Positions 3,576 to 20,515 of a DNA stretch of 32,218 nt are shown here, piece after piece. The stretch is from Mycolicibacterium sp. (GTDB taxonomy: Bacteria; Actinomycetota; Actinomycetes; Mycobacteriales; Mycobacteriaceae). Location: NCBI GenBank assembly GCA_030666145.1, contig DAOUYK010000007.1, positions 1-32,218 of the forward strand, in the 5' to 3' direction. The notes beneath the pieces were generated by a model. The model was not told the DNA's origin. It saw only the letters and a program-made list of their open reading frames with translations, and did not search any database. The stretch's first letter is position 1. Each line of letters opens with the position of its first letter. Made by a program: the position numbers and the translations under genes.

Positions 3576-4505
3576 GTGCCGACACAGAACCCACCGGATC
3601 GGGCCCCGGTTAAGCAGCCGACGCCGGCCGCCGGTGCTGTGCTGTGGCGGCCTAGCGACCTCACGGGCACGCCGGAGATCGCCGTCATCCACCGTCCCCG
3701 CTATGACGACTGGTCATTACCCAAGGGCAAAGTCGATCCCGGTGAGACCGAACCGGTAACCGCCGTCCGTGAGGTCGAGGAGGAAACCGGCTTTCATACA
3801 CATCTTGGTCGCCGCCTGACGACGGTGAGTTACCCCGTCCATCAGGGCATCAAGACGGTGCGTTACTGGGCGGCTCGTTGTGTCAGTGGGCAGTTCAGCG
3901 CCAATGACGAGGTCGATGAGCTCCAATGGCTTCCTCCGGCCCAGGCAATCAGGGCGCTCACCTATCCGCACGACCGCAAAGTGCTGCGCCGGTTCTTGAA
4001 ATCACCTGCCAACACCCAGACGGTGATGATCGTGCGTCATGCCAGGGCGGGAAGCAAAGCCAGGTACAAAAGGGACGATCGAATGCGTCCCCTCGATAGT
4101 CACGGTCGGGCGCAGGCCGAGTCGCTTGTCGGGCAGCTTCTCTCATTCGGGGCGGGCGAACTGTATGCAGCTGACAGGACTCGGTGCCGGCAGACGTTAG
4201 ATCCGCTGGCCGAGGAGCTGGACAGGGTGATCCGAAATGAGCCTGAACTCACCGAGGAAGCGTACGCAGACAACCGTAAGGCCGCCCGCCAACGCATTCT
4301 CGAGATCGCAGCGACATCGGTGAACCCGGTGATCTGCACTCAGGGAAAGGTGATTCCCGACCTCATCGCATGGTGGTGTGAGCGCGACGGTGTCCGGCCC
4401 GACAAATCGCGCAACCGCAAGGGCAGCACGTGGGTCATGTCGCTTTCCGAGGGGCGGCTCATCGCCGCTGACCACATCGGCAGCCCGCTGGCCCCGAAGA
4501 AGTGA
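3576..4505 (+). CDS. mutT1: Nudix hydrolase fused to histidine-phosphatase domain (MutT1 type)
   Basis: Nudix box [23 protein letters not shown], then phosphoglycerate-mutase-like motif [11 protein letters not shown] in the same ORF. Confidence 0.93.
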
Positions 4506-4532: not shown

Positions 4533-4574
4533 ATAAACACGCCGCGGATCGTTTTCGATCCGCGGCGTGTTTAT
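4533..4574. terminator. Bidirectional intrinsic terminator between convergent mutT1 and hupB
   Basis: Perfect 19-bp inverted repeat ATAAACACGCCGCGGATCG-TTTT-CGATCCGCGGCGTGTTTAT between two convergent genes. Confidence 0.85.
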
Positions 4575-4582
4575 CGCGTTGA

Positions 4583-5356
4583 TTACTTGCGACCGCGTTT
4601 GGCCGGAGCCTTCTTGGCGGCCTTCTTAACCGCAGCCTTCTTGGCTACAGACTTCTTCACCGCAGCCTTCTTGGCGGCCTTCTTAACCGCAGCCTTCTTG
4701 GCTACAGTCTTCTTCGCCGCAGTCTTCTTGGCTACAGACTTCTTCACCGCAGCCTTCTTGACGGCAGTCTTCTTGGCTACAGACTTCTTCACTGCAGCCT
4801 TCTTGGCGGCCTTCTTGACTACAGCCTTCTTCGCCGCAGTCTTCTTCGCCGCAGTCTTCTTCGCCGCAGTCTTCTTCACCGCAGCCTTCTTGGCGGCCTT
4901 CTTGACTACAGCCTTCTTCATCGCAGTCTTCTTCGCCGCAGTCTTCTTCGCCGCGGCCTTCTTCGCCGCGGCCTTCTTCGCCGCGGCCTTCTTGACTGCA
5001 CTCTTCTTGGCGGCCTTACGACCGGTAACACCGGCCGTCATGCCGCGTTTCACAGCCGGACCATCGGATGGGAGTCGCTGTGCGCCAGAGACAACAGCCT
5101 TGAACTGAGCGCCTGGGCGAAACGCTGGCACGGAGGTCGGCTTGACCTTCACCGTCTCGCCGGTGCGCGGGTTGCGCGCCACTCGAGCGGCGCGACGACG
5201 CTGTTCAAAGACGCCGAAGCCGGTGATCGTGACACTCTCCCCCCGGTGAACCGCGCGTACGATGGTGTCAACGACATTCTCAACCGCCTCAGTCGCTTGC
5301 CGGCGATCCGAGCCCAATTTCTCCGTGAGTACGTCGATGAGCTCCGCTTTATTCAT
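4583..5356 (-). CDS. hupB: HU-family DNA-binding protein with long Lys/Ala-rich C-terminal tail
   Basis: [91 protein letters not shown] followed by AAKK/AVKK repeats; start chosen by HU homology inside ORF 4583..5446. Confidence 0.97.
4605..5015 (-). repeat. Degenerate minisatellite-like coding repeats (KKAA/KKTA/KKSV units) in hupB
   Basis: Recurrent ttcttggcggccttcttaaccgcagcc / ttcttcgccgcagtc / ttcttggctacagac modules visible across the interval. Confidence 0.9.
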
Positions 5357-5558
5357 GCAAAACCTCCGAATACCAGTGGTCCTCTTTGAACCGACTAAAC
5401 CACACGGTAAACCCATTGGCTGCTGATTTCCAAGAGCCACGTGCAATTTCAGGCCAAGCTAGCCAAATATTTTCAATCCGCTTGCCGCCCTTGACGTCCT
5501 ACCGGGCGTCGCAAAAACCAGATCGGAGAGGGGCAATTTCAGCCGTTGACAAAGTTTT

Positions 5559-16445: not shown

Positions 16446-18014
<1,569 letters not shown>

Positions 18015-18018
<4 letters not shown>

Positions 18019-19871
18019 GCGTGTCCTTCTTCCGGATCGCCGAACAGTGGTCGGATTCCGCGTGCCGCCTGGATCTCATCGTTGCCGGTACCGGCAGCAA
18101 CCATCGGCCACACCTGGGCGTCCGCGCCGACGATGAAGTCGATCACCACAGGCCGATCATTGATCGCTCTAGCCTGGGCGATAACCTCGGCAACGTCCTC
18201 TTCACGTTCACACCGCAGCCCGACGCACCCCAAAGCCTCCGCCAGCTTGACGAAGTCTGGGACACGATGCGAGTGCGTGGCCAGATCCGTTTGGCTATAC
18301 CGCTCTCCGTAGAAGAGAGTCTGCCACTGCCGAACCATGCCCAGGTTGCCGTTGTTGATCACCGCGACCTTGATCGGCACGCCCTCGACCGCGCAGGTGG
18401 CCAACTCCTGATTGGTCATCTGGAAACAGCCGTCGCCGTCGATGGCCCAAACCTCGGCTTCTGGACGTCCCATCTTGGCGCCCATTGCGGCGGGAACCGC
18501 AAAACCCATCGTACCCAGCCCGCCTGAGTTGATCCACGTCTTGGGGTTCTCGTAGGAGATGAACTGGGCGGCCCACATCTGGTGCTGGCCCACACCGGCG
18601 ACGTAGACCGCGTCGGACCCGGCGATCTTGCCCAGTGACTCGATCACAAACTCCGGTGACAGGCTGCCGTCACTCTGCGGCCCATAGCTCAGCGGATACG
18701 TGGACTCCACACCCCGCAGGTACTCCCACCAGTTGTCGATCTCGATCGAGCCAAGCGCACCATCGCGGCGCAGCGCCTCGATCAACTCCGTGATCACGGC
18801 CTTGACGTCACCCACGATGGGGACGTCGGCGTGCCGGTTCTTGCCGATCTCGGCGGGGTCGATGTCGGCGTGGATGACTTTCGCGTCGGGGGCGAACGAG
18901 TCCAGCTTGCCGGTCACCCGGTCGTCAAAGCGGGTGCCCAGCGCTATCAGCAGGTCGCTGCGCTGCAGCCCTGCGACCGCTGCCACCGTCCCGTGCATGC
19001 CGGGCATGCCCAGATTCTGCGGGTGGCTGTCGGGGAATGCTCCCCTAGCCATCAGCGTGGTGACGACCGGGATGCCGGTCAGCTCTGCCAGGTCCAGCAG
19101 TTGGCTGGTGGCCTCGCCGCGGATGACGCCGCCGCCGACGTAGAGAACCGGCTTGCGCGCCCCGGCGATGAGCTTGCCGGCCTCGCGGATCTGCCGATTG
19201 TGCGGTTTGGTGTTGGGCTTGTAGCCGGGCAGCTCGAACTGCGGCGGCCAACTGAACGTGCACTGGGCCTGCAGTACATCCTTTGGGATGTCGACGAGCA
19301 CCGGTCCGGGCCGCCCGCTTGCCGCGATATGGAACGCCTCGGTGATCACGCGCCCGATGTCGTCACCGTCGCGGACCAGGAAGTTGTGCTTGGTGATCGG
19401 CATTGTGATGCCGGAGATGTCGGCCTCCTGGAACGCGTCCGTGCCGATCAGTGCCCGCCCGACCTGGCCGGTGATCGCGACCATCGGGATCGAGTCCATG
19501 TAGGCATCGGCCAGCGGTGTCACGAGGTTCGTGGCGCCCGGGCCCGAGGTCGCCATGCACACACCCACCCGGCCGGTGGCATGTGCGTACCCACTGGCAG
19601 CGTGTCCGCCACCCTGTTCGTGGCGGACCAGGACGTGCCGAAGTTTCTGGGAGTCGAACAGCGGATCGTATACCGGCAGGACCGCCCCACCCGGGATGCC
19701 AAAGAGGATGTCGACGTCAAGTTCCTCGAGCGACCGAATCACTGCCTGCGCCCCGGTGATACTATGGGGTGCAACTCTTTTCGGCTGCGCGGGAGCCGTT
19801 CTTTCTGCAGTATGACAACCGTTGTCCGGTGTCGCCGACTGCTCGGGGGGTCGCGCGGTGGGTGCGCTCAC
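18015..19871 (-). CDS. ilvB: Acetolactate synthase large subunit
   Basis: [90 protein letters not shown] motif [39 protein letters not shown] start (VSAPTARPP) preferred because the longer ORF start lies beside the leader terminator. Confidence 0.97.
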
Positions 19872-19926
19872 TGTGTTCCTCTGGTTCCGTCCGGTCTTTT
19901 CGGATCTCAACTCGGTGTTGGGCAAG

Positions 19927-19964
19927 AAAAAACCCCCGACAGCTCAGCGGCTGTACGAGGGTTG
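19927..19964 (-). terminator. Intrinsic terminator in the ilvB leader (attenuator)
   Basis: Minus strand AACCCTCG-T-ACAGC-CGCTGA-GCTGT-CGGGGGTT then TTTTCTT: about 13-bp stem with one bulged T and G:T wobble, followed by a T-tract. Confidence 0.8.
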
Positions 19965-20024
19965 CGCGTCGATGCGGTTGTGCTATGCCCGGCTGGGGGC
20001 TAGCGCGGCATCAACGCGCAACCC
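19959..20024 (-). promoter_or_regulatory. Alternative (antiterminator) hairpin of the ilvB leader
   Basis: Minus strand GGGTTGCGCGTTGATGC (20024-20008) pairs with GCATCGACGCGCAACCC (19975-19959): 17 positions with one G:T wobble; the 3' arm overlaps the 5' arm of the terminator. Confidence 0.75.
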
Positions 20025-20054
20025 AATTACTACTCGCAATCCCGGGATCTGCAT
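19983..20054 (-). CDS. ilvB leader peptide, MQIPGLRVVIGLRVDAALAPSRA
   Basis: ATG CAG ATC CCG GGA TTG CGA GTA GTA ATT GGG TTG CGC GTT GAT GCC GCG CTA GCC CCC AGC CGG GCA TAG; 8 of 23 residues are Ile/Leu/Val; lies just upstream of the attenuator hairpins. Confidence 0.8.
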   Translation of the reverse strand: MQIPGLRVVIGLRVDAALAPSRA

Positions 20055-20062
20055 AGCAGCCG

Positions 20063-20092
20063 ACGGTAGCCGCCGAACTGGCCAGAGGTCAA
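20063..20092 (-). promoter_or_regulatory. Candidate ilvB promoter
   Basis: Minus strand TTGACC (20092-20087), 18-nt spacer, TACCGT (20068-20063), 8 nt to the leader-peptide ATG; suggests a leaderless or near-leaderless leader ORF. Confidence 0.5.
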
Positions 20093-20119: not shown

Positions 20120-20515
20120 ATGGCTTCCCCTTCAGCGTCCGCCCCGGCCCCGGTCGTCGTCAGGATTTCACCGATGGCGCATCTGGCCGTCAGCCTCCTG
20201 ACTTTAGGACTGCTCTCGCTGGTGTTTGCCGGGCCCAGTTGGTTCGTGCTGTTGCTCTTTATCCCTGTGCCGTTGTCGCTGGCAATCATCCGGTACCGGA
20301 CAACAGCAGACCAAGAAAACGTGACCGTGCGAACCCTGCTGGGCAGCGAGACTGTCCCTTGGGACGACATCGACGGACTGCGGTTCACCAAGAGGTCGTG
20401 GGCACGCGCCCGGCGACACGATGGGAGTGAGCTGTTACTTCCAGCAGTCACATTTTCGACACTGCCGCTGCTGACGGCAGCCAGCCGGGGACGCGTTCCC
20501 AACCCCTATCGCTAA
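20120..20515 (+). CDS. cfp6: PH-domain membrane-associated protein (Cfp6-like)
   Basis: MAHLAVSLLTLGLLSLVF...IIRYRTTADQENVTVRTLLGSETVPWDDIDGLRFTKRSWARA...LPAVTFSTLPLLTAASRGRVPNPYR; alternative start at 20174. Confidence 0.82.
   Translation: MASPSASAPAPVVVRISPMAHLAVSLLTLGLLSLVFAGPSWFVLLLFIPVPLSLAIIRYRTTADQENVTVRTLLGSETVPWDDIDGLRFTKRSWARARRHDGSELLLPAVTFSTLPLLTAASRGRVPNPYR

Follow-up and report, generated by a model that had tools for sequence, protein, structure and literature searches.

The ilvBNC locus and its upstream region

The window, i.e. the whole stretch of 32,218 nt that was analysed, belongs to a 3.2-Mb draft Mycobacterium assembly and contains ilvB, ilvN and ilvC, which were called with curated NCBIfam cut-offs. 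The closest named relatives found for its IlvB are from Mycobacterium sp. NAZ190054 (90%) and M. vaccae (88%). Upstream of ilvB we found a promoter, a short leader ORF, an antiterminator hairpin and an intrinsic terminator (Table 1). A sequence-only reading of this stretch had described a TTGACC-18-TACCGT promoter, a 23-codon leader ORF with eight Ile/Leu/Val residues, a near-perfect repeat of 17 positions and a terminator with a T-tract, and all of these were recovered at the positions given in Table 1. The upstream neighbour of the leader is divergent and begins about 52 nt from the -10 element of ilvB. Thus, the two divergent promoters have a short region in common, and the terminator does not terminate an upstream operon. 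By its position, we take this ORF to resemble the Cfp6/PH-domain neighbour of ilvB1.

Table 1. Features of the ilvBNC leader and neighbouring genes (positions in the window)
Feature	Position	Strand	Remarks
ilvC, ketol-acid reductoisomerase	16446..17459	-	TIGR00465 above cut-off
ilvN, acetolactate synthase small subunit	17500..18018	-	TIGR00119 above cut-off
ilvB, acetolactate synthase large subunit	18015..19871	-	GTG start; NF005860 / TIGR00118 above cut-off
T-tract TTTTTTCTT	19924..19932	-	directly behind terminator stem
Intrinsic terminator hairpin	19931..19963	-	13 pairs, one bulge; between leader ORF and ilvB
Antiterminator 3' arm	19959..19975	-	covariation at several pairs; 19959-19963 common with terminator
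Leader ORF MQIPGLRVVIGLRVDAALAPSRA-stop	19983..20054	-	ATG 20054, TAG 19985-19983, 23 codons
Antiterminator 5' arm	20008..20024	-	inside leader ORF, codons G-L-R-V-D-A
Regulatory codons GTA-GTA	20028..20033	-	conserved in 134/135 mycobacterial species; first GTA 20033-20031
-10 element TACCGT	20063..20068	-	18-nt spacer from -35
-35 element TTGACC	20087..20092	-	read from sequence; TTGAC in 127/135 mycobacterial leaders
Divergent small membrane-protein ORF	20120-20515	+	upstream neighbour of leader

We gathered the ilvB upstream regions of 137 mycobacterial loci, including that of the window itself. Two were lost at contig ends, and 135 had readable upstream sequence. TTGAC was found upstream of the -10 element in 127 of the 135 leaders, at a distance of 18 nt (n = 125) or 17 nt (n = 2); the remaining eight had no match, and for some of them the extracted sequence was too short. 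The -10 element is TACCGT in 121/135 species, and its distance to the start codon is 8 nt in 128/135. The leader ATG lies at the predicted transcription start or within about 2-3 nt of it, i.e. the leader is near-leaderless, and we infer that transcription starts at or just before ATG 20054. A generic scan of the sequence for sigma-70 promoters and terminators detected neither element. This is because TACCGT, a TANNNT-type -10 element, has no TATAAT core and the terminator stem is bulged; the result is not counted against the feature.

Leader peptide and control codons

A homologous leader ORF is present in all 135 readable mycobacterial loci. Ile, Leu and Val account for 8 of the 23 residues of the peptide of the window. 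Among the Val codons, GTA is the rarest (4.8%, counted over nine ORFs of the window), and one tRNA-Val with the anticodon UAC was found among the tRNA loci examined in this draft genome, whose tRNA set is incomplete. The codon after GTA-GTA is variable across mycobacteria (Ile, Leu, Val, Ala, Pro or Thr). Selective charging of tRNA isoacceptors has been reported to explain why leaders favour certain synonymous codons (PMC1183508), and GUA had already been listed among the control codons of M. tuberculosis (PMC13236596) and of Corynebacterium (PMC11857589).

Several leaders have diverged. The sole true departure from GTA-GTA is GTA-GTG-ACT (MLVVT) in L203, a single-contig genome of 3.27 Mb, which is the size of that of M. 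leprae; regulation by this leader may be relaxed. In one mycobacterial clade (L158, L159, L164-L167, L169 and L191), the leader has been rewritten to MDNGMLVVA(H/P)CALVVA; it contains two Val-Val pairs, and Ala replaces Ile behind GTA-GTA. The leader peptides of L143 and L145 carry an insertion of about 10 codons ahead of the VVI core (MLDGGA.APT..VVI), and the spacing between GTA and the hairpin is unchanged despite this insertion.

Two hairpins with common bases

The antiterminator stem consists of 17 bp, 16 Watson-Crick pairs and one T-G pair, and encloses a loop of 32 nt. Its segment folds with -45.9 kcal/mol (z = -6.4), and none of 200 shuffled sequences was as good; the terminator folds with -19.8 kcal/mol (z = -2.7), and 4/200 shuffled sequences were as good. 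The claim of the sequence-only reading that positions 19959-19963 belong to both hairpins was borne out by sequence and folding. None of 25 first-order Markov simulations of the window produced a stem of at least 17 pairs whose loop was 60 nt or shorter. Elsewhere in the real window there are two stems of 18-19 bp with G-U pairs and one perfect 19-bp palindrome, and thus the stem length alone is not unique. The palindrome (4533-4574, ATAAACACGCCGCGGATCG...CGATCCGCGGCGTGTTTAT, 4-nt loop) lies between two convergent genes, which were named by eye as a NUDIX/phosphohistidine-phosphatase-like ORF (3576-4505, plus strand) and a HupB-like ORF (4583-5446, minus strand), and it looks like a bidirectional terminator. 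The strongest evidence against chance comes from sequence comparison: the entire arrangement recurs upstream of ilvB in 135/135 readable loci.

An Rfam search of the whole window returned only two tRNAs at the gathering threshold. At the leader, between 19800 and 20150, no Rfam family such as a riboswitch or a T-box was matched up to E = 5.

Conservation and covariation

Covariation across mycobacteria had been suggested as a check, and the antiterminator does covary in an alignment of 58 diverse leaders. In this alignment, 84% of the cells were paired at the antiterminator, compared with 26-49% for slid partners. Five pairs had changes on both sides, and at one pair G-C, A-U and G-U were found in 28, 21 and 7 species, respectively. 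We took the support from the slid controls and the pattern of changes at the pairs, because shuffle statistics are inflated by relatedness. The outer antiterminator pairs GGGTT/AACCC are lineage-specific; they are matched in the window and its near relatives, and partly matched or unmatched in other mycobacteria. A further hairpin, GCGCG-7-CGCGC (20019-20003), was seen in folds of the nascent RNA as a candidate anti-antiterminator. It was dropped after the covariation check: 67% of the cells were paired, without covariation, which is no better than one slid control.

At the terminator, 93% of the cells were paired and 10 of the 13 pairs never varied across the 58 species. Being nearly invariant, the terminator taken alone shows no covariation, as would be expected of a constitutive terminator, or of chance hairpins beside a short ORF, without any amino acid control. 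This reading is very improbable, since it does not account for a universal leader peptide with the rare GTA-GTA and a covarying antiterminator, for the attenuation experiments in two genera described below, or for a terminator whose upstream gene is divergent and which thus ends no upstream operon.

The antiterminator 5' arm lies inside the leader ORF in every mycobacterial homologue examined, and the antiterminator of C. glutamicum also overlaps its leader ORF. Therefore, the embedded arm, which the sequence-only reading had regarded as a special layout, is the common one. The position of the stop codon differs among mycobacteria. In 67 mycobacteria it lies 24-36 nt past the first GTA, so that a ribosome finishing there is on or beside the antiterminator 5' arm, and in 68, including the window (48 nt), it lies at least 45 nt past the first GTA.

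We also searched 73 further ilvB upstream regions from outside Mycobacterium, which were mostly actinobacterial with a few from other phyla. Thirty-one of them contained GTA (usually CTC-GTA), a GCGCG-type hairpin and then a terminator. The search pattern demanded a GTA 8-17 nt before a GCGCG-type hairpin, and thus 31/73 is a minimum estimate for the hairpin, and the frequency of GTA is not an independent test. The hairpin starts 11 nt past the first base of GTA in 26/31 of these leaders. In all 135 mycobacteria the terminator follows the hairpin after a gap of 0 or 1 nt, and in the 31 other leaders after a gap of 0-2 nt. Neither the 11-nt peak nor this gap was imposed by the search pattern. 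Two details go beyond the cited literature: in much of Actinomycetota a single rare GTA precedes the hairpin by 11 nt, and the hairpin abuts the terminator (0-2 nt).

Folding with a stalled ribosome

RNA is usually unwound at the entry of the ribosome up to about 11 nt from the first base of the P site. A ribosome whose A site holds the first GTA would thus free the RNA from 20024 onward. In equilibrium folding under this constraint, the outer antiterminator pairs reached 0.91 and the lower terminator stem 0.13. When the A site was placed on the second GTA, the values changed to 0.15 and 0.88; on the Ile codon, the terminator won outright. Mutual exclusion of the two hairpins through their shared bases, as had been proposed, is thus predicted for a stall at the first GTA and is lost when the ribosome stalls one or two codons further on. 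The pairs in question adjoin the T-tract, where a working terminator requires pairing.

A ribosome at the TAG had been thought to mask the repeat. By its predicted footprint, it occupies the 32-nt antiterminator loop and extends only to the first bases of the 3' arm. The RNA downstream of it folds by itself into the terminator at equilibrium. A comparison of two folded states had also been suggested. At equilibrium, folding agreed with the proposed switch for a stall at the first GTA but not for one at the second GTA or the Ile codon, and the terminator was free to fold with the ribosome at the stop. In the complete RNA without a ribosome, the antiterminator was favoured as well. This predicts read-through without translation. 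In C. glutamicum, however, destruction of the leader start codon lowers expression by 80% (PMC11857589). An anti-antiterminator or a pausing step may therefore be missing from the model.

We folded the leaders of all 135 species in the same way. For a stall with the A site on the first GTA, the antiterminator won at equilibrium in 6/135 species and the terminator in 129/135; at later stalls, the antiterminator won in none of the 135. In 42/135 mycobacteria, the CCC at the base of the terminator stays entirely outside the antiterminator, even at the widest exposure. According to these predictions, equilibrium exclusion would be strong in the window but would hold in only 6/135 species, a point that also goes beyond the cited literature. 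This suggests that equilibrium exclusion through shared bases is not the whole mechanism in most species, and in those that lack it the switch is probably kinetic or steric. The terminator wins in most species, and the switch of M. tuberculosis works nevertheless. Either the order of co-transcriptional folding decides, or abutment hinders the terminator without any sharing of bases.

It is conceivable, although we consider it rather unlikely, that the terminator is blocked by steric or kinetic hindrance from the conserved first hairpin abutting it, and that base sharing is a lineage-specific reinforcement that is strong in the window. The gap of 0-2 nt in the mycobacterial and the other leaders, the unused CCC and the predicted win of the terminator in most species are consistent with this, as is the induction that is nonetheless observed in M. 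tuberculosis (PMC13236596). On the other hand, equilibrium folding ignores the order of transcription, an overlap of 3 nt with the terminator base suffices in the fast-attenuator model of C. glutamicum (PMC11857589), and direct evidence for steric exclusion was not found. In the broader form of this idea, which we regard as equally doubtful, a ribosome stalled on a rare GTA, a hairpin 11 nt on and a terminator 0-2 nt on would act mainly by abutment in much of Actinomycetota; base sharing would be lineage-specific, and the clade of the window would be unusual in also winning thermodynamically.

A different antiterminator has been proposed for the Corynebacterium ilvB-II motif on the basis of in-line probing in C. 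ulcerans, namely pairing of the hairpin loop with the 3' side of the terminator (PMC10272879). The hairpin in the leader ORF and the terminator would then form together in the OFF state. The loop of the window has a run of C (GCCCCC) that could pair with GGGGG. By eye, however, several short mycobacterial loops have no such run (e.g., L176 and L006). We rejected pairing of the C-run with the terminator 3' side as a candidate, as it is not conserved in the genus, and there is little chance that this is the true antiterminator.

Probable ribosome-mediated attenuation of ilvBNC

We conclude, with a probability of about 90%, that the leader is a ribosome-mediated transcription attenuator of ilvBNC that senses valine. 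The attenuator interpretation of the sequence-only reading is supported by the anatomy, the covariation, the ilvBNC genes downstream and direct experiments with the orthologous leader of M. tuberculosis (PMC13236596). The present analysis provides the elements, the evidence of conservation and covariation, and the folding predictions for the different ribosome states; by analogy, this species would switch as M. tuberculosis does, and in the folding model the first GTA is the probable stall codon. A result that counts against attenuation is that in S. coelicolor the proposed regulatory codons were changed and ilvB regulation was not affected (reported in PMC1262725).

The proposed switch would work as follows. 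Transcription would begin at or just before the ATG, and translation of the leader peptide would be near-leaderless. Under valine shortage, the ribosome would pause with its A site on the first GTA. This would leave the RNA free from 20024 onward, and the 17-bp antiterminator could form once its 3' arm is transcribed. It would capture the AACCC that would otherwise close the base of the terminator beside the T-tract, and the polymerase would continue into ilvB. If there is enough charged Val-tRNA, the ribosome would advance to the TAG, fill the antiterminator loop and contact the 3' arm. The antiterminator would be blocked from closing, the terminator would form, and transcription would end near 19924.

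Both the response to branched-chain amino acid inhibitors and how fit rifampicin-resistant M. tuberculosis is are influenced by attenuation of the ilvB operon (PMC13236596). The locus provides a clear, strongly predicted example of this recently proven mycobacterial regulator in a new species. The 135 mycobacterial and 31 other leaders yield precise, testable constraints: the identity of GTA, the 11-nt spacing and the abutting hairpins. In addition, the locus helps to frame the question of whether base sharing, folding order or abutment is responsible.

Comparison with known systems

The locus is a well-preserved member of a switch that has already been demonstrated in M. tuberculosis and Corynebacterium. 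The sequence-only reading had noted that attenuation of actinobacterial ilvB was proposed before. In 2005, leader peptides with runs of I/V/L that overlap terminators were predicted upstream of ilvB in Mycobacterium, Corynebacterium and Streptomyces (PMC1262725). That study left the mode of ilvB regulation open, and the layout of the window is of the same kind.

In M. tuberculosis, the ilvB1NC leader gives an abundant terminated short RNA of ~120 nt, and its uORF shows ribosome occupancy in ribosome profiling (PMC13236596, 2026). Replacement of LVVI by AAAA abolishes induction, the response to chlorflavonin needs an intact LVVI, and removal of the terminator relieves the defect (PMC13236596). 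Branched-chain amino acid uORFs are reported to be conserved across mycobacterial species (PMC13236596). The window has the same operon, a branched-chain amino acid uORF, LVVI-type codons including GUA, an antiterminator and a terminator. The leader length is also comparable: the U-tract ends at +126 in M. tuberculosis and at about +131 in the window, if transcription starts at the ATG. Unlike in M. tuberculosis, the core is L-R-V-V-I and the stop TAG lies 48 nt past the first GTA. The antiterminator of the window has the full 17 bp with five shared nt; the M. tuberculosis leader is known here from the description in PMC13236596.

In C. glutamicum, the transcription start and the leader start codon are 1 nt apart, the valine response is lost upon Val-to-Ala changes, and terminator mutations raise expression 7-8 fold (PMC11857589). 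The window resembles ilvBNC of C. glutamicum and other Corynebacterium (the ilvB-II motif) in its near-leaderless peptide and its Leu/Val(GUA) control codons (PMC11857589, PMC10272879). As in Corynebacterium, the antiterminator abuts and slightly overlaps the terminator, and a U-tract follows the terminator. The two differ in the sequence and length of the peptide and in the overlap, which is 3 nt in Corynebacterium and 5 nt in the window.

The window also resembles the trp, his, leu and ilv attenuators of enterobacteria, in which the choice between antiterminator and terminator is made by ribosomes that stall at regulatory codons. Their regulatory codons are biased, and in leu rare, as they are here (PMC1183508). 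Unlike those attenuators, the leader of the window is initiated near-leaderlessly, and its two hairpins share few nucleotides.
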